A program made the translations under genes and the position numbers. Below the pieces are notes generated by a model. It was not told the DNA's origin. It did no database searches and worked only from the letters and a program-made list of their open reading frames with translations. Below, in pieces: positions 17,894 through 63,557 of a stretch of 64,000 bases of DNA. The stretch covers positions 1 through 64,000 of the IMG/VR virus record IMGVR_UViG_3300026320_000001; one strand, 5' to 3'. This DNA is from a virus. Position 1 is the first letter of the stretch; each line of letters starts with the position of its first letter.

Positions 17894-17903
17894 GAGAATG
17901 AAA

Positions 17904-18995
17904 ATGACCGATAGGCCAATGGCAACACTTAGAACTGTAAATAATAAATATCCTATTCCTGAAAAGGATAGGATTGAATTGATTCAGGTAGATGGATGGC
18001 AAGTAATTTCAAAAAAGGATGAATTTGAAATTGGTGATATGTGCATATATGCTGAACCAGATTCTATTTTTCCTGAAATACCAGATTTTGAATTTCTTCG
18101 TCCTAAAAAATTTCGTATTAAAACTATGAAGATGGCTGGAGTTATTAGTCAAGGCATTGTTTTTCCATTATCAATTCTCCCCCTCCGCAACAAGAAATAT
18201 GTTCTTGGCGAAGATGTTACGGAATTGATTGGTATCACAAAATATAAAAGTGAACCAGATAATTCAATTCCACAACCAACATGGATGAAAAATCCAATTG
18301 TTAAAAAACTTTTGAGATATAAAATTTTTAGAACAATTCTTTTGCCAAATAAAGAATATAAAGGATTTCCAAAATTCATTTCTAAAACAGATGAAGAAAA
18401 TGTTCAAAATTTACCATATTTATTTTCTGAAGAATTTAAAAACGTTCCATTTGCTGTTCGTGAAAAAATAGAAGGTCAATCAGGAACGTGGTTTCTTCAA
18501 AGAAAAAAGAATTGGTTTGGAAAAGAAATTTTTGAATTTGGAGTTTGTTCAAGAAATATTCGTAAATTCAAAAAAGATAATTCATCATTTTGGAAAGTTG
18601 CCATAAAATATAATATTGAAAATATTCTAAAAGAATTAATTGGTGATAAAAATGAATGGATTGCCATTCAGGGTGAATGTGTTGGCCCCGGCATTCAAGG
18701 CAATATCTATAAATTAAATGATGTTGATGTTTATATGTTTAATTATATAGAACCAAAAGGAAAAATGGATGATAAAATAGCTGAAGTTGTTATGAATTCA
18801 TATAGCATTAGATGGTGTCCTTTAATTGATAATGAATATTATCTTCCATCAACAGCAAATGATGTTCTTGAATATTCAAATGGTACATCGCTTTTATATA
18901 ATACTGACCGTGAAGGATTGGTATTTCGCAATTACGAAAAAAATATTAGCTTCAAAGCACGTTCACCTAAATATTTATTAAAATCTGATACATAG
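17904..18995 (+). CDS. RNA ligase, DRB0094 family
   Basis: The nucleotidyl-transferase motif REKIEGQSG (Lys about 188), later QGECVGPGIQGN and the motif IV/V strand REGLVFRN...SFKARS identify an ATP-dependent RNA ligase of the Deinococcus DRB0094 type. The N-terminal 170 residues match that family's extra OB-like domain (IGDMCIYAEPDSIFPE). These enzymes seal 3'-OH/5'-phosphate nicks in RNA. ATG 17904 has TAGGAG at good distance. A second, different RNA ligase is at 31575. Inference: RNA repair with the adjacent phosphatase. Confidence 0.9.
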   Translation: MTDRPMATLRTVNNKYPIPEKDRIELIQVDGWQVISKKDEFEIGDMCIYAEPDSIFPEIPDFEFLRPKKFRIKTMKMAGVISQGIVFPLSILPLRNKKYVLGEDVTELIGITKYKSEPDNSIPQPTWMKNPIVKKLLRYKIFRTILLPNKEYKGFPKFISKTDEENVQNLPYLFSEEFKNVPFAVREKIEGQSGTWFLQRKKNWFGKEIFEFGVCSRNIRKFKKDNSSFWKVAIKYNIENILKELIGDKNEWIAIQGECVGPGIQGNIYKLNDVDVYMFNYIEPKGKMDDKIAEVVMNSYSIRWCPLIDNEYYLPSTANDVLEYSNGTSLLYNTDREGLVFRNYEKNISFKARSPKYLLKSDT

Positions 18996-31574: not shown

Positions 31575-32669
31575 ATGGAACTAGAATTACTTGCTTTTAT
31601 CAAACATAATCCTGATTGGAAAACAATTCTTCAGGAAAAACCATATGGAATAACTATCAAAGAAAAAAATGGTTATATTCTCTTTATGTACAGTCAAATT
31701 GAAAGTGATTTCAAATTATCTTTAGTACGTGAATGTCGTGGTTTGATTTTACGTGAAAAAGATTTAAAACCTGTTTGTATGGCTTTCAAAAAATTCGGAA
31801 ATTATGGTGAAAGTTATGTTCCCGATATTGACTGGTCAAATGTTAAAGTACAAGAAAAAGCTGACGGTTCGATAATTAAATTGTGGTTTGATAATAATGA
31901 ATGGCATGTTTCTACAAATGGAACAATTGATGCATCTGATGCTTCACTATCAGAAAATTCAATGTTAATAGATGGATGTATTTATAAAAATTATTCTGAA
32001 TTATTTCATAGTGTTTTTCCACAAAATTTATATTATGATGTTTTGAATATTGATTTATGCTATATCTTTGAATTAGTTTCAAATTTTAATAGAGTTGTGA
32101 TTCCTTATAATGAAACAGCATTGTACCATATTGGCACTAGAAATATGAAAACCCTAGAAGAATTAGACATTGACATTGGAATTAAAAAACCAAAATTATA
32201 TAATTTAACTTCATTAGAAGAAATTTTAGAAATAGTAAAAAAATTACCATTCAATGATGAAGGATATGTTATTTTAGACAAATTTTGGAATAGATTAAAA
32301 ATAAAATCATTAGCATATATTTCTGCTCATCATTTAAAAAATAATGGTGTTGTTACAAAGAATCGTGTTCTTGATATGATTAGAACCGGCGAACAATCTG
32401 AGTTTCTTAATTATTATCCAGAATATCAAGAAATTTTTAATGAAGTCCAAAATAAAATTAATAAACTTTTGGTATCCATTGAACATGATTATATTCTTTT
32501 CAAAAACAGAAAATTTGAAGATAGAAAAGAAATGGCATTATGGGTAAATCAAACTGTTTGTCCGTCTGCTATATATAGTTTATATGATAAAAAAGTATCA
32601 GATGTAAATAGTTTTGTTTTCGGATTAACTAATGAGCGTTTATTGAAAATGATTGGAGAAAAAGAATGA
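31575..32669 (+). CDS. RNA ligase, T4 Rnl1-like
   Basis: VRECRGLIL (about residue 53) and the adenylation motif EKADGSIIK with Lys about 95 closely match T4 RNA ligase 1 (Lys99), followed by a motif IV-like EGYVILD and RLKIKSLAY motif V. 364 aa is the usual size. Rnl1 seals tRNA broken in the anticodon loop. It overlaps the kinase-HD gene by 4 nt, the same pairing of sealing and healing enzymes that T4 uses against the PrrC anticodon nuclease. GGAG upstream of ATG. Confidence 0.92.
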   Translation: MELELLAFIKHNPDWKTILQEKPYGITIKEKNGYILFMYSQIESDFKLSLVRECRGLILREKDLKPVCMAFKKFGNYGESYVPDIDWSNVKVQEKADGSIIKLWFDNNEWHVSTNGTIDASDASLSENSMLIDGCIYKNYSELFHSVFPQNLYYDVLNIDLCYIFELVSNFNRVVIPYNETALYHIGTRNMKTLEELDIDIGIKKPKLYNLTSLEEILEIVKKLPFNDEGYVILDKFWNRLKIKSLAYISAHHLKNNGVVTKNRVLDMIRTGEQSEFLNYYPEYQEIFNEVQNKINKLLVSIEHDYILFKNRKFEDRKEMALWVNQTVCPSAIYSLYDKKVSDVNSFVFGLTNERLLKMIGEKE

Positions 32670-33580
32670 CTGAACTAAGATTTCTTGTTGGAATTCCTGC
32701 AAGTGGAAAATCTACTTTTGCAAAAGAGATTTTAAAAGATAATAATTATGTTCTTGTTTCATCGGATTCATATCGTGAAAAAATTTATGGTTCGGAAGAA
32801 ATTCAAGGAAATAAAAATGAACTTTTTGAAATTATCAATAAAGATATTATTCAATATCTTATGGATGGTAAATCTGTAATTTTTGATGCGACAAATATAG
32901 ATTTAAAAAAGAGAATGGAATTAATAAAAAAAATAAATTCAAAAGTTTCAGATATTTATATAACAGCACAAGTTGTTGCAACCCAATATAAAATCTGCTT
33001 GGAAAACAACAGGAAACGGACACGTTTCGTCCCCGAATTCGTTATTAAGCGCATGTATGAAAATTTTACTTTTCCTCAAAATTTTGAAGGTATTCACAAT
33101 GTCTTTATTCGGTATGATTATGATAAATATGATTATCGTCAAGAATGGCTTGAAGAACTAATGGATGATTTCAACCAAGATAATCCCCATCATAGTTCTA
33201 CGCTTGGTCAGCACACACTTAAGGTTTTTGAAAATATTTTGACTGTTGCTCCCGATAATCATAGATTGCAATTGGCCGCTAAATTTCACGATATAGGAAA
33301 ATTATATACAAAGACTTATAAAGATTCAAAAGGAAATCAGAAAGATTTTGCCAGTTATTATAATCATGAGCAAGTTTCGACATATGAATCTATGTTTTAT
33401 CTTAAAGAAAAAAATATTCAAAATTTTGATATGTTCTATATTCTTGGATTGATTCAATTTCATATGAGGTTATATGGAATCAATTCTGATAAAAGCAGAG
33501 ATAAACTTATAAATCTCATTGGTAGACAAATGTATGAAGATTTAATTTTATTAAATGATGCAGATAAAAATGGAAAATAA
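32666..33580 (+). CDS. Polynucleotide kinase with C-terminal HD phosphohydrolase domain
   Basis: P-loop GIPASGKS (residues 9-16), then VIFDATN and RKRTRFVPEFVIKRM as in T4 polynucleotide kinase. Residues about 180-304 form an HD domain (AAKFHDIGK, HD at 208-209; YNHEQVSTYE; HMRLYG; NDADK). T4 uses a HAD phosphatase instead; bacterial HD-Pnk enzymes (for example from Runella) combine the same activities in opposite domain order. Predicted 5'-OH kinase plus 2',3'-phosphate phosphatase that prepares cut RNA for the Rnl1-like ligase. Translation coupled through ATGA. Confidence 0.9.
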   Translation: MTELRFLVGIPASGKSTFAKEILKDNNYVLVSSDSYREKIYGSEEIQGNKNELFEIINKDIIQYLMDGKSVIFDATNIDLKKRMELIKKINSKVSDIYITAQVVATQYKICLENNRKRTRFVPEFVIKRMYENFTFPQNFEGIHNVFIRYDYDKYDYRQEWLEELMDDFNQDNPHHSSTLGQHTLKVFENILTVAPDNHRLQLAAKFHDIGKLYTKTYKDSKGNQKDFASYYNHEQVSTYESMFYLKEKNIQNFDMFYILGLIQFHMRLYGINSDKSRDKLINLIGRQMYEDLILLNDADKNGK

Positions 33581-35605: not shown

Positions 35606-36496
35606 ATGAAAAATTTAAAAATAATTTTTGAAACTAAAGCAGGTTCACATCTTTATGGAACAAACACTATATCTAGCGATATGGATTATCGTGGTGTTGG
35701 CGTTGTTCCAATTAAAGATATGCTTGACCCCTTCCAAGAATTCAATCAATTTGAAGATAATGAATCTGATGATAGAATTATTTATGGATTGAAAAAATTT
35801 ATGAAATTGGCAAGCGATATGAACCCCAATGTTTGTGAATTGTTATATGCAAACGAAAATTCTATTATTAAATTAACAAAACAAGGTAAAATTCTTTTAG
35901 ATAATAGAAACTTATTTCTATCACAACTTGCACGAAAAACATTTTTTGGATATGCAGTTGCACAATTGAAAAGAATTGAATTACATAAGAATTATCTTTT
36001 AAATCCTCCAAAAAATAAACCTAATCGTGAAGATTATGGTTTGCCAGCTATGCCAAATTTTGGATTGGAAAAAATTGTCAACATGATTCATTCTCCACAA
36101 GAAACTATTGCACCTGAATGGCGTGAATATGCATTAAAAGAAAAATCATATCGTGATGCTTCAGACAATTATCAAAAATATGAACAGTGGAAAAATAATA
36201 GAAATCCAAAACGTGCATTACTAGAAGAAAAATGGGGGTATGATTTAAAGCATTCTAATCATTTATATAGACTTTTGACTGAAGGAAGAGAATTATTAGA
36301 AACAGGAAATATTGTATTTCCTTTAAGAAATGTTGATAAATTAAAATTTATTTTAAATGGTGGTATGACTTACAATGATTTGATGGAAGAAGTAAATGAA
36401 TTAAATAAACTTTTTGAAAATTGTAAATCTAATTTACCAAATAAACCAAATATCAATAAATTAAAAGAATTATATTATAAAATTCTAGGAATATAA
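35606..36496 (+). CDS. RlaP-like nucleotidyltransferase (DNA polymerase beta superfamily)
   Basis: KAGSHLYGTNTISSDMDYRG (residues 8-28) contains the GS and DxD catalytic signature of the COG3541 RlaP group. The rest (FFGYAVAQLKRIE...KHSNHLYRLLTEG...) matches the helical part of that family, which occurs in phages and near RNA repair genes. Target unproven; RNA-end modification was proposed for this group. 296 aa, normal length. Two bases after the previous gene. Confidence 0.85.
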   Translation: MKNLKIIFETKAGSHLYGTNTISSDMDYRGVGVVPIKDMLDPFQEFNQFEDNESDDRIIYGLKKFMKLASDMNPNVCELLYANENSIIKLTKQGKILLDNRNLFLSQLARKTFFGYAVAQLKRIELHKNYLLNPPKNKPNREDYGLPAMPNFGLEKIVNMIHSPQETIAPEWREYALKEKSYRDASDNYQKYEQWKNNRNPKRALLEEKWGYDLKHSNHLYRLLTEGRELLETGNIVFPLRNVDKLKFILNGGMTYNDLMEEVNELNKLFENCKSNLPNKPNINKLKELYYKILGI

Positions 36497-45063: not shown

Positions 45064-45145
45064 GAGAATATGATGGAATGCAGACATGCCAACCTTAGAA
45101 GTTGGTGCTAGAAATAGCATACTGGTTCAAATCCAGTTATTCTCA
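45064..45145 (+). tRNA. tRNA-Leu (anticodon TAG)
   Basis: Acceptor GAGAATA/TATTCTC, anticodon loop CTTAGAA, long variable arm TGCTAGAAATAGCA as expected for Leu, T arm ACTGG-TTCAAAT-CCAGT. No CCA encoded. Confidence 0.9.
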
Positions 45146-45149
45146 CTAT

Positions 45150-45224
45150 GCTGATATGAAGGGAATTGGCATACCTATTTCGCTTAAAACGAAATGTTTA
45201 CAGGTTCGACTCCTGTTATCAGCA
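45150..45224 (+). tRNA. tRNA-Leu (anticodon TAA), short variable loop
   Basis: Acceptor GCTGATA/TATCAGC, anticodon arm TTTCG-CTTAAAA-CGAAA, T arm ACAGG-TTCGACT-CCTGT. The variable region has only 5 nt, which is unusual for a Leu tRNA. No CCA encoded. Confidence 0.8.
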
Positions 45225-45238
45225 CAAACAATCACTAT

Positions 45239-45324
45239 GTTCATGTGGCTGGAATTTGGTAGACGCGGCAGTTTCAAAAACTGTTATCTGAAAAGATGTG
45301 TGAGTTCGATTCTCTCCATGAACA
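45239..45324 (+). tRNA. tRNA-Leu (anticodon CAA)
   Basis: Acceptor GTTCATG/CATGAAC, anticodon loop TTCAAAA, long variable arm, T arm GTGAG-TTCGATT-CTCTC (one mismatch-tolerant stem). No CCA encoded. Confidence 0.88.
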
Positions 45325-45328
45325 CTAT

Positions 45329-46094: not shown

Positions 46095-46175
46095 GAGTTT
46101 GTAGCCTATTGGGATGGCATCTGCCTCTTAAGCAGACAGAGTAATCTAGAACAGGTTCGATTCCTGTCAGACTCA
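46095..46175 (+). tRNA. tRNA-Lys (anticodon CTT), long variable arm
   Basis: Acceptor GAGTTTG/CAGACTC, anticodon arm TCTGC-CTCTTAA-GCAGA, T arm ACAGG-TTCGATT-CCTGT. The variable region is 14 nt (CAGAGTAATCTAGA), not the usual 4-5 for Lys. Confidence 0.85.
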
Positions 46176-46188
46176 CAGAAATAAAAAT

Positions 46189-46274
46189 GGAAGAATGCAT
46201 TCATGGGAATAACTAGTCTTGAAAACTAGGCTACCGAGTAGCCCTCGATAACGGTTCGATTCCGTATCCTTCCT
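46189..46274 (+). tRNA. tRNA-Ser (anticodon TGA)
   Basis: Acceptor GGAAGAA/TCCTTCC (one A-C mismatch), anticodon arm CTAGT-CTTGAAA-ACTAG, long variable arm GCTAC-CGA-GTAGC, T loop TTCGATT. Confidence 0.87.
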
Positions 46275-46311
46275 CTAGTAAGAAAAATTCATTTTCAAAA
46301 GGATATTAAAA

Positions 46312-46443
46312 ATGTCGCCAAAGAATGAAGTTACTAAAAAATATTTGATTACAAGAGATGAAGAAGTTTTCACTGATTGGCTTTTCAAAAGTCAGGTGAG
46401 CGATTATATTCGCAGAGGATATATCGTTGAAGAAATAAAGTAA
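46312..46443 (+). CDS. Hypothetical peptide, 43 aa
   Basis: AAAAGGATATTAAAA precedes the ATG. Charged small protein between tRNA genes. No family recognised. Confidence 0.45.
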   Translation: MSPKNEVTKKYLITRDEEVFTDWLFKSQVSDYIRRGYIVEEIK

Positions 46444-46449
46444 TGAATT

Positions 46450-46536
46450 GGAATCATGACAGAGTAGCAATGTGTATGTTTGCTAAACATAAGCCACCAG
46501 TAACATGATGCGTAGGTGCAAATCCTACTGATTCCG
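46450..46536 (+). tRNA. tRNA-Ser (anticodon GCT), CCA follows
   Basis: Acceptor GGAATCA/TGATTCC, anticodon arm TATGT-TTGCTAA-ACATA, long variable arm, T arm GTAGG-TGCAAAT-CCTAC. The discriminator G is followed by CCA (46537-46539), so the end is encoded here. Confidence 0.9.
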
Positions 46537-46542
46537 CCAAAT

Positions 46543-46613
46543 GACACCTATTCCTACCGGGTGGGGAATTGTCTGCAAAACAATTAATAGAGATTCGACT
46601 TCTCTAGGTGTCT
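46543..46613 (+). tRNA. tRNA-Cys (anticodon GCA)
   Basis: Acceptor GACACCT/AGGTGTC, anticodon arm ATTGT-CTGCAAA-ACAAT, T arm AGAGA-TTCGACT-TCTCT. 71 nt. Confidence 0.9.
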
Positions 46614-46644
46614 CTTTCAGCATTTGTTGAAACAGGAGCAAATA

Positions 46645-46782
46645 ATGAAAATTGAAAAAGCAAACAAAAGAGATAAAAAACGCTTCAAAAAGAAGAATGG
46701 AATGATTGTTGGAAATAAAAGTATTTTTATAATACAAGAAATACAAATAAAGAAATCGAATAAATTAAAGAAAAATAAATAA
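46645..46782 (+). CDS. Very basic 45-aa peptide
   Basis: AACAGGAGCAAATA precedes the ATG. About 19 of 45 residues are Lys. Similar in character to the peptide at 1144. Possibly RNA-binding. Lies between tRNA-Cys and tRNA-Phe. Confidence 0.5.
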   Translation: MKIEKANKRDKKRFKKKNGMIVGNKSIFIIQEIQIKKSNKLKKNK

Positions 46783-46786
46783 TTAT

Positions 46787-46859
46787 GTGTTTGTAGTGTA
46801 GTTAGTCTGCACGTTTGCCTGAAGAGCAGAAAGTGCTAGTGCAATTCTAGCCGGACACA
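46787..46859 (+). tRNA. tRNA-Phe (anticodon GAA)
   Basis: Acceptor GTGTTTG/CGGACAC, anticodon arm TTTGC-CTGAAGA-GCAGA, T arm GCTAG-TGCAATT-CTAGC. Confidence 0.9.
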
Positions 46860-46862
46860 CTA

Positions 46863-46941
46863 TCCTCCAATATACCCTCGTTCTTATAAAGCGCAGAAAG
46901 GTTAATTGGTGACATGATGGTTCGAGTCCATCTTGGAGGAC
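46863..46941 (+). other. tRNA-like element, possible D-armless tRNA
   Basis: Acceptor TCCTCCA (46863-46869)/TGGAGGA and T arm GATGG-TTCGAGT-CCATC are perfect. Between them no normal D arm is found. A possible anticodon arm CGTT-CTTATAA-AGCG (anticodon TAT, Ile) sits too close to the 5' side, and a D-loop-like AATTGGT lies after it. Either a degenerate tRNA or a rearranged one. Confidence 0.5.
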
Positions 46942-46943
46942 TC

Positions 46944-47017
46944 TATTCCTATAACTCAATAGTAGAGTGTCCGTTTTACATGCGGAATGTTGGGGGTGCA
47001 AGTCCCTCTAGGAATAC
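46944..47017 (+). tRNA. tRNA-Val (anticodon TAC)
   Basis: Acceptor TATTCCT/AGGAATA, D stem ACTC/GAGT, anticodon arm TCCGT-TTTACAT-GCGGA, T loop TGCAAGT. Confidence 0.9.
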
Positions 47018-47038
47018 TAAAATTTAAGGAGAATAAAA

Positions 47039-47287
47039 ATGAATGAAAATGATATAGAACACATTATTAATCAAATGAAATATATTCCTATTAGAAATTT
47101 TTATCATGCAGATAGATATGATACAGATAATGAATATGTTATTCATCTTTGGACTGAAATAGGTCAAAAAAATTTTGACATTAGAATTAAAAAAGAAAAA
47201 ATTAAATGTCCATATTGTGACGATTTTTATTATGAGGGTGGTTGGGCAAATCATTTATTAATGAAACATCATCAACATGCTGGATAA
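47039..47287 (+). CDS. Small C2H2-like zinc-finger protein, 82 aa
   Basis: KCPYCDDFYYEGGWANHLLMKHH near the C-terminus fits C-x2-C...H-x4-H, a C2H2-type finger. AAGGAGAATAAAA upstream. Possibly nucleic-acid binding. Confidence 0.6.
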   Translation: MNENDIEHIINQMKYIPIRNFYHADRYDTDNEYVIHLWTEIGQKNFDIRIKKEKIKCPYCDDFYYEGGWANHLLMKHHQHAG

Positions 47288-47295
47288 ATTATAAA

Positions 47296-47550
47296 ATGAG
47301 ACAAGTTAAACTTTTATATTTCAAATCATATGGTAAATATTATTCTGAAGGTTCGTATGCTACTCAAAAAGAATATGATTTTGATGTTTATACCGAAGTA
47401 GAAAATATGTTTTTAATTGGTAGTTATCCGGGACTATATAACACTGGAAAACCTCATGAATTTGATTGTGTTATTTTCCCTGAAAATGGTGTTCCCGGAA
47501 TTCTTTATGCAAAAGAAATACAAAATTTATTTAAGATGATTAATGGCTAA
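47296..47550 (+). CDS. Hypothetical protein, 84 aa
   Basis: ATG 47296 after the previous stop. Contains LLYFKSYGKYYSEGSYATQ, YTEV and YPGLY: resembles a small phage protein family (single alpha/beta domain). Function unknown. Confidence 0.55.
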   Translation: MRQVKLLYFKSYGKYYSEGSYATQKEYDFDVYTEVENMFLIGSYPGLYNTGKPHEFDCVIFPENGVPGILYAKEIQNLFKMING

Positions 47551-47788
47551 ATTTGATTTAAGACCGATAATGGAATTTCAAGTAAAAGTTGTTTTGACCG
47601 AAGAAGAAGCTAGGGCGTTGCAATATATTTGTAAATATGGTGCAGATACTTTAATCAAAGGCTTGGATACTGTCATGACCACAAAAGAAATTAGCAAGGG
47701 AATCAGAAGTCTTGTTCGTGATACACAAGATTCTATAAATAAACAAATTAGTAAAATTGATGAAGCTAGAAAAGTAGTTGAAGAATAA
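47543..47788 (+). CDS. Hypothetical protein, 81 aa
   Basis: 8-nt overlap with the previous gene. VKVVLTEEEARALQYICKYG then a helical basic part; resembles small phage proteins with unknown function. Confidence 0.6.
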   Translation: MAKFDLRPIMEFQVKVVLTEEEARALQYICKYGADTLIKGLDTVMTTKEISKGIRSLVRDTQDSINKQISKIDEARKVVEE

Positions 47789-47791
47789 TTG

Positions 47792-48085
47792 ATGAAATTT
47801 ATGTTTTATGGAAATAATATAATTATGTTCAAACAAAAATGTCCAATATGTGATTCAAAATTAGAATATGATATTGATAATTTAGATTTTTATCTAATGG
47901 AAGAGCATTATAATTGCCCCAATAAAGATTATTCTTATTCATATGAATATGGAATGACAAACATAACAATAGGAAATAAAGAATTTAATTATACTTATTT
48001 GGATAGCAATGTAAAAAAAGCTTTAATTTTAAAAGAAATCAAATTAGAGACTGAAAGATTGAAGTCCTTGACAAGATTAGAATAA
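47792..48085 (+). CDS. Small Cys-containing protein, 97 aa
   Basis: KCPICDSKL ... NCPNKD suggests a zinc ribbon (about residues 15-45). The start is uncertain (47792 or 47825) because no strong ribosome site is present. No family recognised. Confidence 0.55.
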   Translation: MKFMFYGNNIIMFKQKCPICDSKLEYDIDNLDFYLMEEHYNCPNKDYSYSYEYGMTNITIGNKEFNYTYLDSNVKKALILKEIKLETERLKSLTRLE

Positions 48086-48096
48086 TATGGTATAAT
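48068..48096 (+). promoter_or_regulatory. Sigma70-type promoter
   Basis: TTGACA, 17 bp, TATAAT, with ATGG before the -10; overlaps the end of the previous gene. Confidence 0.85.
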
Positions 48097-48122
48097 TATA
48101 TTAAATTAGAAAGGAATTATTT

Positions 48123-48347
48123 ATGAAATCATATCATATTGTTTTATTGTCTGCTTTGGCAACTTTGTGTGCTTTATTTTCTTTTGTTAATTCTGTTCGA
48201 GATATGGAAATTGATAATAATGCTTTCATTCTCGAAACAAATAACTATGACTTAATTATTGCTCATAATGATAATCATGTTGAATTTAATTTGAATTATT
48301 TTTATGGTAATAAAGCATATCAAATAGAAAAAATTTTTATTTTTTAG
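48123..48347 (+). CDS. Small secreted or membrane-anchored protein, 74 aa
   Basis: Hydrophobic N-terminal segment (residues 6-24) after KSYH, then a polar C-terminal region: signal peptide or anchor. GAAAGGAATTATTT upstream. No family recognised. Confidence 0.55.
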   Translation: MKSYHIVLLSALATLCALFSFVNSVRDMEIDNNAFILETNNYDLIIAHNDNHVEFNLNYFYGNKAYQIEKIFIF

Positions 48348-48354
48348 TTATTTA

Positions 48355-48400
48355 TTGACTGTTTTTGGTGCATAGTCAAATTTATATCGTAATGATATAA
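48355..48400 (+). other. Non-coding stretch with two hairpins
   Basis: TTGACT/AGTCAA (48355-48360/48374-48379) and TTATATC/GATATAA (48382-48388/48394-48400). Apart from these nothing is recognised between 48348 and the tRNA at 48459. Confidence 0.35.
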
Positions 48401-48458
48401 GGGACGCTTGGCGACCTACATAGAAAAGCATAGTAACCATATTTATTAAAAATTAAAT

Positions 48459-48530
48459 GCTGTTTTGGTCTATTGGCTAAGACAATTCTTTCTCAAAGAA
48501 TTATGATGGGTTCGATTCCCATAAACAGCA
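48459..48530 (+). tRNA. tRNA-Glu (anticodon CTC)
   Basis: Acceptor GCTGTTT/AAACAGC, D stem GTCT/AGAC, anticodon arm ATTCT-TTCTCAA-AGAAT, T arm ATGGG-TTCGATT-CCCAT. Confidence 0.9.
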
Positions 48531-48539
48531 CAAATATAA

Positions 48540-48595
48540 AAGACACGCACAGTAATCAAACCCAATTCAACCGTTAATTGAAAAATAAGTGTCTT
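48540..48595 (+). ncRNA. Small structured RNA element A (upstream of the Ro60-like gene)
   Basis: Ends pair as AAGACAC/GTGTCTT. ACAGTAATCAAA follows the 5' stem, and CAATT/AATTG forms an inner hairpin. Shares its stem position and the ACAGYAA motif with elements B and C. Confidence 0.45.
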
Positions 48596-48621
48596 GAAAA
48601 ATAATTTATATATGTACAGAT

Positions 48622-48670
48622 AGACTCTCACAGCAAATAAAATCTTTGTCCAAAAGAAAAAATGGAGTCT
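48622..48670 (+). ncRNA. Small structured RNA element B
   Basis: Ends pair as AGACTCT/GGAGTCT; ACAGCAAATAAA follows the 5' stem. Same layout as elements A and C. Confidence 0.42.
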
Positions 48671-48692
48671 TGGCTAATCGTCTAACAATCAT

Positions 48693-48752
48693 AAGACGCT
48701 ATACAGCAATTAAAATAATCAACTTTCAAACAGATGAAATAAATTGCGTCTT
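48693..48752 (+). ncRNA. Small structured RNA element C
   Basis: Ends pair as AAGACGC/GCGTCTT; ACAGCAATTAAA follows the 5' stem. Ends 24 nt before the ATG of the DUF2828 gene, so it might also act as its leader. Confidence 0.45.
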
Positions 48753-48776
48753 GAGAATTTTCAGAGGAGAAATAAA

Positions 48777-50249
48777 ATGAATTTAAAAAATGCTTTATCA
48801 AATGAATCAAATTGGACTCAAACAGAAAATGATGCTGATGCATTAAAATCAACTCAAAATAGTTTAGTTGATTTATTTGGTGTAATTGGTGCATTGCGTA
48901 CTCGTACTGGAGATGTAGAAAATCTTTTTATTAAGGCTTTTTATGAAAATAAATTGCTTGCAACAAAGATGTCTTTTTATGCTCGTAATGTTCGTGGTGG
49001 ACTTGGTGAACGTAGTGTTTCAAAAATTATTTGGAAATATTTAGCAAATAATTATTCGGATATTATGATTAAAAATATTAATATCATTCCTCTATTTGGG
49101 CGTTGGGATGATTTATATGAGTTTGTTGGTACTCCTGTGGAAAAATATATGTGGGAGTTGATTAGAAATCAATTGAAAGAAGACTTGGAAAATTTTACTT
49201 CGGGAAATTCAATTTCTTTGTTGGCAAAATGGATGAAAAGTATTAATGCTTCTTCAACTGAAACAAATCGTCTTGGAAAATTGACAGCAAAAAATTTAGG
49301 ATATTCAGAACAAGAATATCGTAAAATGTTAAAAACTTTGCGTGACCATATTAATATTGTTGAAAGTAAGATGTCAAATAATCAATGGTCAGAAATTGAC
49401 TATCGTTCTGTTCCTTCTAAGGCTATGATGAATTATCGTAAATCTTTTTCAAAACATGATTTGGAACGTTTTGGAAAATTTATTGAAAAAGTTGAAACAG
49501 GTGAAGAAAAAATTAATTCTTCAACTTTATATCCTTATGACATTTTTGAAAAAATGGGATTAGCAGAAAAATATGGTGGAAGAAGTCAAAGCTTTTATTT
49601 CACAAGTCCAGATAAAGTTTTAGAAGCACAATGGAAAGCATTGCCAAATTATTTTGTTGATGGTGATGTTTTGGTTATGGCTGATACATCTGGTTCAATG
49701 CAAGGTAGACCAATTGCAATTTCTCTTGGATTGGCTGTTTATTGTGCAGAACATAATAGTGGACAATTTAAAGATTCATTCATTACATTTTCAAGTCGTC
49801 CAAGTTTTGTCAAACTTGTTGGAAATACTTTGGCAGAAAAAATTCGTAATGTTCCAGCTATTGTAGAAAATACAAATATTGAATCTGCTTTTAATTTAGT
49901 TCTTAATGCGGCAAAAGAAAATAAGGTTTCATCTGAAGATATGCCAAAAGCGATTATCATTATATCAGATATGGAATTTGATAGATGTTCTGGTTATCGT
50001 ATGACATTTTATGATGCTATGAAATTGAAATTTGAAAATGCCGGACATAAAATTCCTGATATTTTATTTTGGAATGTAAATAGTCGCCAAAATGTATTTC
50101 ATGCATTTTCAGAATATAAGGGTGTTCAATTGGCAAGTGGTTCAAGTCCATCGGTTTTTTCAAGCATTATTAAAAATTTGGGCATGAATCCATATGAAGC
50201 AATGTTGAATGTTTTGAACGATGAAGTCTATAATGTGGTTGTAATTTGA
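48777..50249 (+). CDS. DUF2828 protein: TROVE/Ro60-like with vWA domain
   Basis: LVDLFGVIGALRTR, SFYARNVRGGLGERSV and PLFGRWDDLYEF form the helical N-terminal region. DVLVMADTSGSM (MIDAS DxSxS), FITFSSRP, IIIISDMEFDRCSG and LASGSSPSVFSSI form the vWA domain, in the DUF2828 family order. DUF2828 is a distant relative of the TROVE proteins such as Ro60, which bind Y RNAs and misfolded RNA. 490 aa is full length. ATG follows GAGGAGAAATAAA. Its place among tRNAs and small structured RNAs makes an RNA-chaperone role plausible by inference. Confidence 0.85.
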   Translation: MNLKNALSNESNWTQTENDADALKSTQNSLVDLFGVIGALRTRTGDVENLFIKAFYENKLLATKMSFYARNVRGGLGERSVSKIIWKYLANNYSDIMIKNINIIPLFGRWDDLYEFVGTPVEKYMWELIRNQLKEDLENFTSGNSISLLAKWMKSINASSTETNRLGKLTAKNLGYSEQEYRKMLKTLRDHINIVESKMSNNQWSEIDYRSVPSKAMMNYRKSFSKHDLERFGKFIEKVETGEEKINSSTLYPYDIFEKMGLAEKYGGRSQSFYFTSPDKVLEAQWKALPNYFVDGDVLVMADTSGSMQGRPIAISLGLAVYCAEHNSGQFKDSFITFSSRPSFVKLVGNTLAEKIRNVPAIVENTNIESAFNLVLNAAKENKVSSEDMPKAIIIISDMEFDRCSGYRMTFYDAMKLKFENAGHKIPDILFWNVNSRQNVFHAFSEYKGVQLASGSSPSVFSSIIKNLGMNPYEAMLNVLNDEVYNVVVI

Positions 50250-50252
50250 CCC

Positions 50253-50281
50253 TTGACAAACTCAAAATATTGTGGTAAAAT
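50253..50281 (+). promoter_or_regulatory. Sigma70-type promoter
   Basis: TTGACA, 17 bp, TAAAAT, with TGTGG before the -10. Precedes a structured non-coding stretch. Confidence 0.8.
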
Positions 50282-50283
50282 TG

Positions 50284-50452
50284 TTTTATAAGCTAGAGAC
50301 AGAAACAAGGTTAAATAACTGGCAATCAAAAAATCTCTCGCGGTTGGATGTCTCAAAAACATCCTACAGACTGTTTTCAAAATTCATAGCTACAGACCCC
50401 ATTGGGTAGGCTCAATGGCTAAACCAGAAAAGCGTAGAATGGCGACATAAAA
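50284..50452 (+). ncRNA. Candidate structured RNA, about 170 nt
   Basis: Starts at a promoter. TTTTAT (50284-50289) can pair with ATAAAA (50447-50452). Internal hairpins are GGATGT-CTCAAAA-ACATCC (a 7-nt, anticodon-like loop) at 50346-50364 and CCATTG/CAATGG (50399-50404/50413-50418). No open frame. Confidence 0.38.
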
Positions 50453-50467
50453 TTATAAGGATAAGAC

Positions 50468-50878
50468 ATGAGTTCTAATGAATATATGAATACCTATATG
50501 AAAAATAGGTATCAAAAAAGAAAATTATTTGCTCTTGAATATCTAGGCGGCAAATGTTCTAAATGTAATTCGGTAGAAAATTTACAATTTGACCACATTA
50601 ATAGAGATGAAAAGAATTTTACTTTGGCAGATGGAATGTTGTGGTCTGAAAAAAAATTTTTAGAAGAATTAAATAAATGTCAATTATTATGCGTGATTTG
50701 TCATCAAAAGAAAACTTTAATTGATTTAAATCAAAGTGATGGTAAAAATACTCATGGAACATTGACATCTTATAAATATTGTAAATGTGAATTATGTAAA
50801 AAAGCTAAATCTGATTATATGAAAGAATATAGAAAAACATATAAAAGAAAAAGCCGAAGAAAAAATATGGAATTGTAG
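50468..50878 (+). CDS. HNH endonuclease
   Basis: CSKCNSVENLQFDHINRD ... CQLLCVICHQ matches the HNH family with Cys pairs (about residues 35-85); a second CELC pair follows. 136 aa, likely a homing endonuclease with tRNA or DNA targets. Its last 10 nt, including the TAG stop, lie inside the tRNA-Lys gene. Confidence 0.87.
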   Translation: MSSNEYMNTYMKNRYQKRKLFALEYLGGKCSKCNSVENLQFDHINRDEKNFTLADGMLWSEKKFLEELNKCQLLCVICHQKKTLIDLNQSDGKNTHGTLTSYKYCKCELCKKAKSDYMKEYRKTYKRKSRRKNMEL

Positions 50879-50951
50879 TCAAGAGGTTAACGACACCAGA
50901 CTTTTAATCTGGCGCAGGAATGCTTCGTGAGTTCGAATCTCACCGATTCCA
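50869..50951 (+). tRNA. tRNA-Lys (anticodon TTT), long variable arm
   Basis: Acceptor GGAATTG/CGATTCC, anticodon arm CCAGA-CTTTTAA-TCTGG, T arm GTGAG-TTCGAAT-CTCAC. The variable region has 14 nt (CGCAGGAATGCTTC). The 5' acceptor strand overlaps the end of the HNH gene. Confidence 0.87.
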
Positions 50952-50992
50952 CTTGTAAGAGAAATTATAAAAATAAAAAGGAGAATTATAAT

Positions 50993-51499
50993 TTGAAGAT
51001 TTTGAAGAACTTTGTTTTAGGTGTTGTGTTGTTATTTTCTGTGATTGGCTATAATGTATATGCCGCTCCATTATTTCAACCTTCATTAGTTTTAGCTCAT
51101 CATGATATTGGAAATGGTTCTTGTCAAGAACAATATGTGAATGAAAATGCTGTTGGAAATGGTGAATGGTTTATTGGTGCTTGTCCCGATGTAACTCCAG
51201 TACCAACCGATACATCAACCGTTGTGCCAACCGATACAGATACTCCAGTCGTGACAGATACTCCAGTCGTGACAGATACTCCAGTCGTGACAGATACTCC
51301 AGTCGTGACAGATACTCCAGTCGTGACAGATACTCCAGTCGTGACAGAAATTGCAACTTTTATTGCAGACCATTCACCTCGTAAATATAAGTGTTGGGCG
51401 GCAAAATGGTTTGGATGGGGAAATGGCCCTCTTCCTGTTGATTGCAGATGGCCTGATAATATGCCACAAAGTCCAATTCATGATGGATGGAATGATTAA
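50993..51499 (+). CDS. Secreted protein with TPVVTD repeat linker
   Basis: TTG start with AAGGAGAATTATAA upstream. The signal peptide (Lys-Ile-Leu-Lys then a hydrophobic run, cleavage near VYA-AP) is followed by a domain with one Cys pair. A Thr/Pro/Val/Asp linker built of six near-identical 18-bp repeats then leads to a C-terminal Trp/Cys/Pro-rich region. 168 aa. Such linkers are common in secreted bacterial proteins. Function unknown; exported or virion-surface decoration possible. Confidence 0.7.
   Translation: MKILKNFVLGVVLLFSVIGYNVYAAPLFQPSLVLAHHDIGNGSCQEQYVNENAVGNGEWFIGACPDVTPVPTDTSTVVPTDTDTPVVTDTPVVTDTPVVTDTPVVTDTPVVTDTPVVTEIATFIADHSPRKYKCWAAKWFGWGNGPLPVDCRWPDNMPQSPIHDGWND
51241..51348 (+). 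repeat. Tandem 18-bp repeats, six copies
   Basis: The unit, gatactccagtcgtgaca or a rotation of it, codes for TPVVTD and lies within the secreted protein gene. Copies are identical or nearly so, suggesting recent slippage expansion. Confidence 0.85.
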
Positions 51500-51538
51500 A
51501 TAAAAAAAATACCTCTCGATGTACAGGTTAATCGAAAT

Positions 51539-51611
51539 GGGCGTGTAGTTTAACTGGGAAAACAGTTGGTTTGCAACCATCAGAGCGAGGATTCGACTTC
51601 CTCCATGTCCA
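51539..51611 (+). tRNA. tRNA-Ala (anticodon TGC)
   Basis: Acceptor GGGCGTG/CATGTCC, anticodon loop TTTGCAA, T arm GAGGA-TTCGACT-TCCTC. One T-T mismatch in the anticodon stem. Confidence 0.85.
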
Positions 51612-51617
51612 CTAATA

Positions 51618-51740
51618 GTCATAACTGGTTGTTTTCCAGATAAAACATTATGACGAAGCATATGTTTTTGGTTGAGATAGAGATATTTCAATACCATATG
51701 TAGGATAATAACAAAAAGACTGATAGGAGAGACTATCATT
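51618..51740 (+). other. Non-coding stretch with consecutive hairpins
   Basis: GTCATAA/TTATGAC enclosing CTGG-TTGTTTT-CCAG (about 51618-51655), then a long stem CATATG...CATATG enclosing GGT-TGAGATA/TATTTCA-ACC (about 51660-51702), then GATAG/CTATC. No frame; class not recognised. Confidence 0.4.
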
Positions 51741-51742
51741 AT

Positions 51743-51810
51743 AGTGGCGTACTGTGGATGAAATGAAATCTCCAAAATTTCTAGAGAGGGTTCGACTCCT
51801 TCCGCTACTG
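51743..51810 (+). tRNA. tRNA-Trp (anticodon CCA), short D arm
   Basis: Acceptor AGTGGCG/CGCTACT, anticodon arm GAAAT-CTCCAAA-ATTTC, T loop TTCGACT. Only 68 nt because the D arm is short. Confidence 0.82.
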
Positions 51811-51910
51811 CTAATATACAAAAATAACATAGTTGAATTTTTAGGTATCACTTCATTTCGACAAAGATTTATGTATATAATAAAAGATATTCTTGATATG
51901 AATATCTTAT

Positions 51911-51996
51911 GTGTTGGCGGCAAAGATGGTGGGTTGCGGCGGACTGTAAATCCGTTTACCGTAAGGTACTTGATGGTTCGAGTCCATCTCAACACA
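51911..51996 (+). tRNA. tRNA-Tyr (anticodon GTA)
   Basis: Acceptor GTGTTGG/TCAACAC, anticodon loop CTGTAAA, long variable arm (normal for bacterial Tyr), T arm GATGG-TTCGAGT-CCATC. Confidence 0.9.
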
Positions 51997-52011
51997 CAAA
52001 ATTTACTATTG

Positions 52012-52118
52012 ACCGAGTGAATAGGTGCAATAAGTCTGGTATCATTCAATGGATTTATATTCTAAATGCGAATGATGATATTGTTGAATCGTGGACATGG
52101 GTTAAATTCCCATATAGT
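52012..52118 (+). other. Non-coding or remnant stretch with tRNA-like T arm
   Basis: Contains ATCATTC/GAATGAT hairpin and ATGGG-TTAAATT-CCCAT, which looks like a T arm, but no clear acceptor or anticodon arm. One frame reads a peptide-like tail of about 40 codons (ending at 52139); not called as a gene. Confidence 0.3.
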
Positions 52119-52128
52119 ATTTTTTATA

Positions 52129-52202
52129 TAGGCAAGTAGCTCAGTGGTAGAGCGTCCGTCTGATACGCGGAGGGTCAAAAGTTCAATTCTTTTTTTGCCT
52201 AC
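52129..52202 (+). tRNA. tRNA-Ile (anticodon GAT)
   Basis: Acceptor TAGGCAA/TTGCCTA, D stem GCTC/GAGC, anticodon arm TCCGT-CTGATAC-GCGGA, T loop TTCAATT. Confidence 0.92.
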
Positions 52203-52239
52203 AAATTATAAATAAAATATTTGTTTTATTTATTTTTAT

Positions 52240-52313
52240 GGTTTATTAGCTCAATCGGATAGAGCAATACATTGTCAATGTATAGGTTGCGGATTCGAGT
52301 TCCGCATAGACCG
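52240..52313 (+). tRNA. tRNA-Asp (anticodon GTC), CCA follows
   Basis: Acceptor GGTTTAT/ATAGACC, anticodon arm ATACA-TTGTCAA-TGTAT, T arm GCGGA-TTCGAGT-TCCGC. Discriminator G then CCA (52314-52316). Confidence 0.92.
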
Positions 52314-52323
52314 CCAATATATC

Positions 52324-52455
52324 TGTTCAGACTCTAGAGTAGTAGAAATCTTTTGAAGGTGATGGGCGTGTGGTTAGGGATTGCTGGACACGGATTGATT
52401 TTGAACTTAGCTACTGGACATGATTCATGGAACATAGAGACTAACATGAATCAAA
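52324..52455 (+). ncRNA. Candidate structured RNA between tRNA-Asp and tRNA-His
   Basis: GTTCA/TGAAC, AGTAG/CTACT, CGTGT/ACACG and an 8-bp hairpin GATTCATG/CATGAATC are within 130 nt without an open frame. Some pairings interleave (possible pseudoknot). No class recognised. Confidence 0.35.
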
Positions 52456-52468
52456 ATAATTTTCATAT

Positions 52469-52551
52469 GTTGAATGTGGCAGACTGGTAATGCGCCTGAC
52501 TGTGAATCAGGGTGTGAAAACACGATGAGGATTCGATTTCCTCCATTCAAC
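52469..52551 (+). tRNA. tRNA-His (anticodon GTG) with encoded G-1 and long variable arm
   Basis: The 8-bp acceptor GTTGAATG/CATTCAAC includes the G-1:C73 pair typical of tRNA-His. Anticodon arm CCTGA-CTGTGAA-TCAGG, T arm GAGGA-TTCGATT-TCCTC. A 15-nt variable arm forms a GTGT-GAAA-ACAC hairpin, unusual for His. Confidence 0.88.
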
Positions 52552-52570
52552 CAAATAGGAGTAAAATATT

Positions 52571-59980: not shown

Positions 59981-60154
59981 ATGACATATTTAATTGATGA
60001 CCTTGTAAAAACTAACAAACAAATAGATGGAAAGTGGGTGATTGCACGCCCATTGCTATCATATGATTTATTAAATCGAATAGTTGATTGCTGGCTTGTA
60101 TTAATTGGAAAAGCCGATGCAGTAATTTATATTAGTGGAAAGAAAAATAAATGA
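59981..60154 (+). CDS. Hypothetical protein, 57 aa
   Basis: AAAGGAAAATAA upstream; ATGA overlap with the Thg1-like gene. Hydrophobic in the middle, possibly soluble core. No family recognised. Confidence 0.55.
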   Translation: MTYLIDDLVKTNKQIDGKWVIARPLLSYDLLNRIVDCWLVLIGKADAVIYISGKKNK

Positions 60155-60873
60155 ATGATGAACTTGGAACACGTATGAAAGAATTTTATGAAAATAGAAG
60201 TCAATCATATCTTGCACGTAGAATACCAGCCATTATAAGAATTGACGGAAAAGCGTTCCATACTTTTACAAATAAATTTACAAAACCATTTGATAATGTT
60301 ATGATTAAATCCATGCAATTAACAGCTAAAAAATTATGCGCTCAAATTCAAGGTGCTAAAATTGCATATACTCAAAGTGATGAAATTAGTCTTTTATTAA
60401 CTGATTGGGATAATTTAAAAACCGATGCATGGTTTGATTATAATATTCAAAAAATTACAAGTGTTTCTGCAAGTATGACAACACTATATTTTAATAATAT
60501 TTTTGCAGAAATTTGTACGGTTGAACAAAGCGATAAGATTGATACAGCCTTATTTGACGCAAGAGTCTTTTCAATTCCAAAAGAAGATGTGAATAATTAT
60601 TTCTGGTGGAGACAAATTGATTGTATTAGAAACTCAATTCAAATGCTGGCACAATCTAATTTTAGTCATAAAGAATTGCAAGGAAAAAATCAAGACGAAT
60701 TGAAATCAATGTTATCAGAAAAGAATATTGAATTTGATAATATGAAAATTCATTTGCAACGAGGTTCTTCTGTTGTCAAACAATTGACAGAATTTGGTGA
60801 AAATAGATGGACAATTGATGAAGAAATTCCTTTGTTCAAAGATGAAAAATATTATATTGAAAGGTACTTATAA
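60151..60873 (+). CDS. Thg1-like 3'-5' polymerase (tRNAHis guanylyltransferase family)
   Basis: RIDGKAFHTF (about residues 30-39) and AYTQSDEISLLL (about 71-82) are the two metal-binding motifs of the Thg1 palm; FDARVFSIP and CIRNSIQMLAQ follow as in Thg1. 240 aa is typical. Thg1 adds G-1 to tRNA-His; Thg1-like proteins repair 5'-truncated tRNAs. Because this phage's tRNA-His already encodes G-1, a repair/editing role is favoured by inference. Fits the RNA-repair theme. Confidence 0.92.
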   Translation: MNDELGTRMKEFYENRSQSYLARRIPAIIRIDGKAFHTFTNKFTKPFDNVMIKSMQLTAKKLCAQIQGAKIAYTQSDEISLLLTDWDNLKTDAWFDYNIQKITSVSASMTTLYFNNIFAEICTVEQSDKIDTALFDARVFSIPKEDVNNYFWWRQIDCIRNSIQMLAQSNFSHKELQGKNQDELKSMLSEKNIEFDNMKIHLQRGSSVVKQLTEFGENRWTIDEEIPLFKDEKYYIERYL

Positions 60874-62360: not shown

Positions 62361-63557
62361 ATGCAACCATTATATCTGTTGAAAATTGAAGTAGATGGAA
62401 ATGCAAATAAATATTATCGTATGATTCCCAATGGAGATTTATTTACTGCCGAATGGGGCAGAGTGGGTTCTAATTCTCAAACTATGGATTATTCAATTAA
62501 TGATTGGGATAAAAAGTTACACGAGAAATTAAGAAAAGGATATGTTGACCAAACTCATCTAGTATCTGAAATCACATCTAATTCTAAATCAAGAGAATAT
62601 TCTGATATAAAAAACAAATCAATTGCAACTATTGTTCAAAGATTACAATCTATGGCAAAAATAGCCATTGAAGAAAATTATACAATTTCATCCAGTAATG
62701 TTACTCAAAAAATGATTGATGAAGCACAAGCATTAATTAATAATCGTTTTTCTTTGGATTCCAATGTTGATTATTTTAATGAACAATTGATTCAATTATT
62801 TAGAATTATCCCAAGAAAAATGAAAAAAGTTTCTGATAATATTTCTCAATCTAAAAAAGATTTTGGAATTATTATTCAAAGAGAACAAGATTTGCTTGAC
62901 ACAATGAAGGGTCAGGTAATTCAACAATCTGTTTTGAATGCCGATGATAATATTGATAATGACAAGCAAACAATTCTTGATGTATTAGATTTACAATTTT
63001 CCGAAATAAATAAGACAGAAGAAAAACAAATTAAATCACATCTTGGTTCTATTGATAATAAATTTTATCAAGCTTGGAAGGTTGTCAATAATAAAACTCA
63101 AAATATATTTGACAAATTTATAAAACAAAATAATATCAATGAAAAAAAATTACTTTTTCATGGTTCAAAAAATGAGAATTATTGGAGTATCATAAATAGC
63201 GGATTGATTTTACGACCAAATGCAGTTATTACCGGAAAGATGTGGGGTTTGGGAATATATTTTGCGTCTGCGGCAGTAAAAAGTTTAAATTATAGTTCTT
63301 TGAAAGGAAGTTATTGGACTGGTGGAACATCTAATTCTGGATTTTTATCTATATTTGATGTTGCATATGGAAATCCATATAATGTTTATAATTTTGATAG
63401 TAAATATTATGAATTAGATTATAATAAATTACAAAAATTTTCACCAAATGCAAATTGTATACATGCAAGAGCAGATAGGGGAATGTTGAAAGCCGATGAA
63501 ATTGTGATATATAAAGAAGAACAATGTACTATAAAATATTTAGTGGAATTGAGATGA
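62361..63557 (+). CDS. WGR-domain poly(ADP-ribose) polymerase
   Basis: The N-terminal WGR domain has NKYYRM...FTAEWGRVGS (about residues 16-38). A helical region (about 90-250) corresponds to the PARP regulatory domain. The catalytic domain has LLFHGSKN (His267), GLGIYFAS (Tyr300) and ADEIVIY (Glu380), the complete H-Y-E triad for NAD+-dependent ADP-ribosylation. The layout matches bacterial/eukaryotic WGR-PARPs activated by DNA ends. Such PARPs are rare in phages. AAAGGATATATAAAT... upstream; second gene of its transcript. Substrate unknown. Confidence 0.93.
   Translation: MQPLYLLKIEVDGNANKYYRMIPNGDLFTAEWGRVGSNSQTMDYSINDWDKKLHEKLRKGYVDQTHLVSEITSNSKSREYSDIKNKSIATIVQRLQSMAKIAIEENYTISSSNVTQKMIDEAQALINNRFSLDSNVDYFNEQLIQLFRIIPRKMKKVSDNISQSKKDFGIIIQREQDLLDTMKGQVIQQSVLNADDNIDNDKQTILDVLDLQFSEINKTEEKQIKSHLGSIDNKFYQAWKVVNNKTQNIFDKFIKQNNINEKKLLFHGSKNENYWSIINSGLILRPNAVITGKMWGLGIYFASAAVKSLNYSSLKGSYWTGGTSNSGFLSIFDVAYGNPYNVYNFDSKYYELDYNKLQKFSPNANCIHARADRGMLKADEIVIYKEEQCTIKYLVELR

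Follow-up and report, generated by a model that had tools for sequence, protein, structure and literature searches.

We describe here three transfer RNA (tRNA) genes of a virus, two for lysine and one for histidine, each with a long variable arm as found in class II tRNAs. They lie in a 64,000-nt stretch of DNA (the window), which comprises bases 1–64000 of the 147,693-base IMG/VR record IMGVR_UViG_3300026320_000001. The record has a G+C content of 28%, and ARAGORN places 21 tRNA genes between 45.1 and 53.4 kb, while a second group of six genes at 124–127 kb of the record displays ordinary variable loops throughout. Within the first group, tRNA-Lys(CUU) was located at 46095–46176, tRNA-Lys(UUU) at 50869–50952 and tRNA-His(GUG) at 52470–52552, all on the plus strand, with scores against the RF00005 covariance model of 58.0, 59.4 and 54.9 bits, respectively. 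The three genes, to which the initial annotation had assigned variable regions of 14–15 nt, were recovered by ARAGORN at the same places, and their variable regions measure 14, 14 and 15 nt.

A fifth arm on tRNA-Lys and tRNA-His

The acceptor stem measures 7 bp in all three tRNAs, the anticodon and T stems 5 bp each, and none of the genes encodes the CCA end. From dissection, the variable arm could be assigned to 46137–46150 in tRNA-Lys(CUU) (C-AGA-GUAA-UCU-AGA, 14 nt), to 50913–50926 in tRNA-Lys(UUU) (C-GCA-GGAA-UGC-UUC, 14 nt) and to 52512–52526 in tRNA-His(GUG) (GUGU-GAAA-ACAC-GAU, 15 nt), again on the plus strand. The arm helices comprise 3, 3 and 4 bp, each capped by a GNRA tetraloop, and the two Lys arms have a common layout with differing stem letters. 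Self-pairing, previously ascribed to several of these arms, is thus present and was understated, since all three of them pair. Upon shuffling of the variable regions, a GNRA loop closed by a helix of 3 bp in the fixed register was obtained with P = 0.0028 for Lys(CUU), 0.0014 for Lys(UUU) and 0.0036 for His, and the same hairpin at any position with P = 0.014, 0.0066 and 0.023, respectively. The bare minimum-energy fold is a five-arm cloverleaf for Lys(CUU) and His.

A different anticodon arm, restoring a normal variable loop, had been named at the outset as the alternative that could undo this assignment. However, the RF00005 covariance model keeps the anticodon arm and puts the insertion in the variable loop, and ARAGORN yields one and the same arm, so that this alternative fails and other anticodon-arm registers are ruled out. 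A tRNA intron was likewise ruled out, as the insert lies within the variable loop, measures 11–27 nt and covaries as a hairpin. In addition to a variable region of at least 10 nt, all three tRNAs display the core of class II architecture, with a D stem of 3 bp and a non-Watson–Crick 13–22 position (U·U in Lys(CUU), A·A in Lys(UUU) and G·A in His). We can therefore confirm that the long arms on these tRNAs are real and class II-like; the tRNAs are class II by build and stand outside the known class II isoacceptors (Leu, Ser, Tyr, Sec). They resemble the class II tRNAs of bacteria in arm length, in the tendency towards a 3-bp D stem and in GNRA arm loops, and differ in that phage arms are found on Lys, His and more than a dozen other isotypes, while sampled cellular Lys tRNAs carry none. 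A long arm outside Leu, Ser and Tyr, in the Cys case, has been reported for selC* tRNA-Cys and allo-tRNAs (PMC7609411, citing Mukai 2017). Those display Sec-like, longer acceptor and anticodon stems, in contrast to the 7/5 form with a 5-bp anticodon stem of the window tRNAs.

Distribution in phages and cellular genomes

The initial annotation implied a peculiarity of one phage, which cannot be upheld: in comparison with other phages, class II tRNAs outside Leu, Ser and Tyr recur and their arm stems covary. For this comparison, phage tRNAs were taken from among the matches listed, partly chosen by pattern, and 2,099 non-identical viral tRNAs were pooled. In 80 viral loci neighbouring DUF2828 genes, we observed 16 tRNAs other than Leu, Ser or Tyr with a variable region of at least 9 nt, along with 13 Leu or Ser tRNAs below 9 nt. 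Further loci were supplied by a looser pattern for Lys(UUU) with a long variable region. Since chance matches inflate this pattern, it served solely to find loci, which were then filtered with ARAGORN. These contained 82 additional long-armed tRNAs outside Leu, Ser and Tyr, covering Lys, Asn, Thr, Ile, Cys, Met, Trp, Glu, Gln, Gly, Val, Pro, Arg and His. Among the pooled tRNAs, about 180 outside Leu, Ser and Tyr carry an arm of 11–27 nt, and the length distribution for these isotypes is bimodal (3–8 versus 11–27 nt), with a single tRNA at 9 nt. At least one such class II tRNA was present in 109 fetched loci, many of which had been selected for it, so that this number is not a frequency. A stringent pattern, combining a Lys anticodon loop, a long variable region and one common T arm, matched 49 viral contigs. 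Class II arms on tRNAs other than Leu, Ser and Tyr are widespread in phages. The window itself gave no megablast match among phages, BLAST of the Lys(CUU) gene against phages returned mainly T-arm matches, and Bacillus phage FADO, related via its DUF2828 gene, has tRNAs of which none shows a switched arm. We found no description of class II Lys, His or Asn tRNAs of phages in the open-access papers searched, which is not proof of novelty.

Cultured phages are among the carriers. Of the two tRNA-Asn(GUU) of phiKZ, one is ordinary and the other (annotated at 269557–269645) has the variable region UGGCGAAAGCCCACC, while in phiCbK both Lys(CUU) and Lys(UUU) are armed, with 15 and 19 nt. Two armed tRNA-Lys are found in Rhodobacter phage RcXuper, two armed Lys and one armed Asn in Mesorhizobium phage Cp1R7A-A1, one armed tRNA-Lys each in Ruegeria phage vB_RpoS-V10, Xanthomonas phage XacN1 and Caulobacter phage CcrBL9, and an armed tRNA-Thr in Synechococcus phage BUCT-ZZ01. 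Existing annotations of the armed genes in cultured phages read plain tRNA-Lys or tRNA-Asn.

Since the level of best-helix counts reached by chance is high in such short variable regions (2.76 bp), covariation is the test to rely on. Among 42 distinct arms with a variable region of 15 nt, the pairs 2:11, 3:10 and 4:9 are formed in 88, 95 and 86%, compared to 40–43% expected after between-sequence shuffling (z = 6.3–7.7), with 5–6 pair types each and in the same register as in the window Lys arms. Covariation with this many pair types argues for selection on the arm. It should be noted that ARAGORN and our filter demand well-formed stems, which partly builds in figures of intactness such as the GG motif in 181 of 182 and the TTC motif in 180 of 182 class II tRNAs outside Leu, Ser and Tyr; arm covariation is not built in. 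GNRA loops cap 38% of these arms, versus 35% in Leu and 39% in Ser, and a 3-bp D stem occurs in 42% of these tRNAs versus 14% of ordinary ones of the same isotypes. The arms could in principle be accidental insertions in decaying, expendable tRNAs that drift neutrally, and degenerate tRNA-like elements do occur in the array (46864–46940, 26 bits, below the Rfam cut-off). This explanation is contradicted, and largely refuted, by the covarying stems, and is also at odds with the GNRA loops, the near-universal GG and TTC motifs (partly a filter effect), the bimodal length and a loss of arms restricted to Leu (see below), which renders it highly improbable.

In cellular genomes, the picture is different. 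The stringent Lys pattern matched five contigs from 84,980 genomes, three of which hold such tRNA genes. Two of the five are contigs of 8–11 kb from metagenome-assembled genomes, with arrays in which several switched isotypes stand together, and are probably phage. In Thalassovita litoralis (NZ_FXTO01000028, L200), the UUU anticodon sits on a Leu-like class II body, while no class II tRNA was recovered from the two archaeal matches (L203, L204), which probably represent intron genes. Using a pattern that accepts any length of the variable region, we obtained 46 Lys(UUU) matches from 100 genomes of Pseudomonadota and 18 from 61 of Bacteroidota, with variable regions of 5 nt; in these roughly 160 genomes, no long-armed Lys was found beyond the two seed places that had brought the clades in. 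A first bacterial control was built on one T-arm sequence and was uninformative, since this T arm occurs in just 2 of 396 Bacteroidota Lys tRNAs. The notion that bacteria lack long arms outside Leu, Ser and Tyr holds for the sampled cellular Lys tRNAs.

Two further groups of armed phage tRNAs were encountered. A tRNA-Ile(UAU) family carries a variable arm of 20–25 nt with a 7-nt loop CAGAUUA and covarying stems of 4–5 bp. It comprises at least 92 distinct tRNAs, all of them Ile UAU, with at least 25 stem types (viral contigs from L380 onward and others), where the loop and TTATA were part of the search pattern and the stems were not, the motif having first been met via other patterns. Members also occur in the cultured Synechococcus phages S-SRM01 and S-SKS1. 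Four phage loci (L042, L046, L066, L076) encode tRNAs that combine a CUA (amber) anticodon with variable arms of 20–27 nt; ARAGORN labels these tRNAs Pyl, and they are probably amber suppressors.

Identity elements and the reverse switch in tRNA-Leu

The identity of the armed tRNAs was predicted with a naive Bayes classifier that had learned from ordinary phage tRNAs and was given neither the anticodon nor the variable region, with cross-validation by locus. On the basis of acceptor stem, T arm, discriminator and anticodon stem, it assigned 54 of the 90 class II Lys tRNAs to Lys, with ordinary Lys reaching 0.60 in cross-validation; Ser accounted for 3 of the 90 as miscalls, and Leu was absent among the listed calls. 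The cognate isotype was likewise returned outside the core for His (4/4), Trp (5/5), Met (6/7) and Thr (9/15). From the D region alone, the same 90 tRNAs resembled Ser (38), Cys (19) and Tyr (10), and seldom Lys (4), suggesting that it is mainly the core that has moved. The discriminators follow the anticodon, with G in 16 of 18 Asn, A in 14 of 14 Ile, U in 7 of 7 Cys and C in 4 of 4 His together with G-1; class II Lys tRNAs have A in 68, U in 21 and G in one case. In the window, both Lys tRNAs combine their UUU or CUU anticodon with A73, as is characteristic of tRNA-Lys. The GUG anticodon of tRNA-His is accompanied by an encoded G-1 (position 52469, plus strand) opposite C73, the identity pair for HisRS, and the classifier sees a clear His. 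G73 with a long arm, the signature of tRNA-Ser, is found in none of the three (A73 in both Lys, C73 in His). Judged by sequence, phage class II Lys and His tRNAs thus keep the predicted identity elements of their cognate amino acid outside the core, and this amino acid is also the likeliest charge that they would carry. The earlier suggestion of altered charging therefore finds no support, with a caveat for tRNA-Lys(UUU), the body of which also resembles phage Ser(UGA).

It could still be imagined that the arm opens these tRNAs to charging by SerRS or LeuRS, resulting in partial recoding of Lys or His codons. SerRS does read a long arm together with G73 (PMC7609411), and the Ser(UGA)-like body of the window Lys(UUU) would be in line with this. 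However, the Ser discriminator G73 is present in 1 of 90 class II Lys, G-1:C73 is kept in all four His, and AAA is the commonest Lys codon of the phage (82 per thousand), so that recoding would be ruinous. We assign only a marginal chance to this possibility.

The same likeness could reflect ancestry. By remoulding, class II Lys and His would be former Ser, Leu or Tyr tRNAs of phages with a changed anticodon and, later, a changed discriminator, and class I Leu would stem from former class I tRNAs, leaving the arm a relic without an advantage of its own. Such anticodon switching is expected to produce mismatches between class and isotype both ways. The nearest relative of the window Lys(UUU) is a class II Lys (identity 0.83), followed by Ser(UGA) of several phages (0.81, or 0.87 without the core), D-arm features are Ser-like in 38 of 90 class II Lys, and Thalassovita litoralis offers a UUU anticodon on a Leu-like body. 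On the other hand, the nearest neighbour outside the core is a class I Lys for 58 of the 90, and a Ser, Leu or Tyr tRNA for just 16, the D-arm likeness to Ser is to be expected from a common class II core, and acceptor and discriminator track the cognate isotype in His, Trp, Cys, Thr and Met. Unlike after anticodon switching, the body outside the core thus follows the cognate isotype in most phage class II tRNAs. As a general explanation we consider remoulding unlikely, while a Ser origin of the window Lys(UUU), going by its sequence, is a live possibility.

The reverse switch is observed for leucine. tRNA-Leu(UAA) at 45150–45225 has lost its arm and retains a 5-nt variable loop in the RF00005 alignment and by dissection, whereas dissection of tRNA-Leu(UAG) at 45064–45146 and tRNA-Leu(CAA) at 45239–45325, which serve as internal comparison, yields an ordinary class II arm of 15 nt with a GAAA loop (all on the plus strand). 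In the sampled loci, a variable region of at most 7 nt is found in 69 of 169 phage tRNA-Leu (41%), compared to a single tRNA among 132 Ser and one among 61 Tyr (p = 1e-24); the difference persists when the two subsets with the least bias are considered (p = 0.006 and 4e-11), and the observation concerns tRNA-Leu in 44 loci. According to reviews, E. coli LeuRS does not need the long arm (PMC9976931), while arm size is the main determinant for Ser, SerRS reading the long arm along with G73 (PMC9976931, PMC7609411). Loss of the arm consequently occurs where charging permits it, and this restriction to Leu is the best, albeit indirect, evidence for charging and use of these phage tRNAs. It appears highly likely that the armed tRNAs are genuine tRNAs of class II build that serve in translation. 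The bacterial rule of long arms on Leu, Ser, Tyr (and Sec) only fails in phages in both directions and for most isotypes, and the exceptions fall as charging would allow, the arm being lost from Leu and not from Ser or Tyr. Phage tRNA sets can thus be regarded as natural experiments that bear on the question of which tRNA features are read by synthetases, the ribosome and tRNA nucleases, with phiKZ, phiCbK, RcXuper and XacN1 as cultured carriers open to testing.

Proposed nuclease escape and tRNA-repair genes

Our favoured account is that the central core of otherwise intact phage Lys and His tRNAs was switched from class I to class II, with the variable region of 14–15 nt folding into a fifth arm and the identity elements for LysRS and HisRS retained in the acceptor, anticodon and T arms. 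After processing, these tRNAs would receive CCA, for which a phage CCA-adding enzyme is at hand, would be charged with lysine and histidine and would read AAA/AAG and CAU/CAC during infection. Such a switch may be tolerated where the cognate synthetase is independent of the variable region, and the new core shape could make the tRNAs poor substrates for host tRNA-destroying defences tuned to the class I tRNAs of the host. It would be the shape-level counterpart of published escape mutations in the anticodon loop. In one such system, the AriB nuclease of PARIS cuts Lys(UUU), Thr(UGU) and Asn(GUU) and may cleave His(GUG) to a minor extent; T5 overcomes it by encoding Lys, Thr and Asn tRNAs that are altered near the AriB cut (PMC12409363). 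The window tRNAs share with these escape tRNAs (PMC12409363, PMC10264068, PMC11555353) that phage copies of targeted isoacceptors (Lys, Thr, Asn) are concerned, and differ from them in that a whole-arm architecture is switched rather than residues of the anticodon loop or stem; variable arm or loop are not mentioned in PMC12409363 or PMC10264068.

The isotype distribution is consistent with such a pressure. Leaving out, for the isotype in question, the loci selected as Lys-long or His-long, arms are found on 57 of 557 tRNAs with U36 and on 30 of 884 others (odds ratio 3.2, p = 2e-7, from counts that are not phylogenetically independent), with Ile(UAU) (11/37), Thr(UGU) (14/71) and Asn(GUU) (18/100) as the most frequently armed isoacceptors. 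The overlap of armed isotypes with AriB targets suggests some such nuclease as the selecting pressure, without pointing to AriB itself. The arm might alternatively stabilise the core, replacing base triples and modifications (m7G46, 13–22–46) that become unreliable late in infection and rendering the fold independent of modification. The excess of 3-bp D stems and the conserved covariation of the arm would suit this explanation. However, it leaves both the isotype bias and the frequent arm loss in Leu unexplained, and we regard it as improbable, slightly more so than remoulding.

Several points weigh against functional, charged tRNAs that were favoured by nuclease escape. The minimum-energy fold of the window Lys(UUU) is not a cloverleaf, the classifier is ambiguous for both window Lys tRNAs, with Lys(CUU) falling between Arg and Lys and Lys(UUU) between Tyr, Ser and Lys, and the identity of Lys(UUU) to phage Ser(UGA) outside the core reaches 0.87. 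The U36 bias is not general, as Arg(UCU) is armed in 0 of 57 cases. AriB touches the anticodon stem and the D loop (PMC12409363), which gives no evident reason for the arm to block it, and U39 of the AriB motif is kept in 58 of 76 class II Lys(UUU) compared to 79 of 124 class I (p = 0.08, a weak test). Moreover, expression, charging, decoding and the escape driver are inferred from the genes. Taken as a whole, we judge the chances of this account to be about even, and the same applies to nuclease escape as the reason for the switch, which stands behind the firmer statement on real tRNAs. The initial proposal that the arms evade tRNA nucleases thus stands as the most plausible driver on circumstantial grounds (isotype bias, AriB overlap and the tRNA-repair genes described below), and goes too far if taken as demonstrated. 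More tentatively, and somewhat short of an even chance, phages in general may perform a shape switch, in which the class II core is put onto isoacceptors attacked by defence and taken off Leu with charging left intact, core shape being the escape trait, and in which the conserved CAGAUUA-loop arm of the Ile(UAU) branch would probably be read by a dedicated protein or RNA. If the arm does block defence nucleases, this would be a partial answer to why phages carry tRNAs, and would provide new tRNA scaffolds.

Several genes on the plus strand of the window are related to tRNA maintenance. A gene similar to CCA-adding tRNA nucleotidyltransferases is located at 8587–9270 (PHROG 2244, 5e-47), an RNA ligase with PHA02142 OB-fold and RNA_ligase domains at 17898–18995 (PHROG 968) and a T4 Rnl1-type RNA ligase at 31575–32669 (PF09511, 3e-13; PHROG 562). 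The latter adjoins a gene at 32666–33580 for a polynucleotide kinase-like P-loop protein with an HD domain (PF13671, PF01966; PHROG 505), followed by an RlaP-type RNA-repair nucleotidyltransferase at 35606–36496 (PF10127, 4e-17) and a member of the Thg1 (tRNA-His guanylyltransferase) family at 60151–60873 (PF04446, 3e-31). The joint presence of the kinase-like protein, two RNA ligases, RlaP, Thg1 and the CCA-adding enzyme fits a phage facing tRNA damage. The Thg1 family gene shares the phage with a class II tRNA-His whose G-1 is already encoded.

Within the tRNA array, a DUF2828 and VWA-like protein is encoded at 48777–50249 (PHROG 850, 'RNA-binding protein'). Relatives were found in 210 viral stretches, many of them likewise beside tRNA arrays. 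We presume that this protein could be a Ro60/TROVE-like RNA-quality protein. Just upstream of its gene, at 48535–48760, lie three successive stretches with complementary ends of 6–7 bases (AAGACAC..GUGUCUU, AGACUC..GAGUCU and AAGACGC..GCGUCUU), none of which is called a tRNA by any tool; they are possible small RNAs. The degenerate element at 46864–46940 scores 26.4 bits; its T arm is good and one loop resembles a UAU anticodon loop, with no normal D arm. At 51617–51655, the sequence GUCAUAA-CUGG-UUGUUUU-CCAG-AUAAAACA-UUAUGAC combines a 7-bp acceptor-like stem with an Asn(GUU)-like anticodon hairpin and has neither D nor T arm. Finally, a protein with a PARP catalytic domain and a WGR domain is encoded at 62361–63557 of the window.

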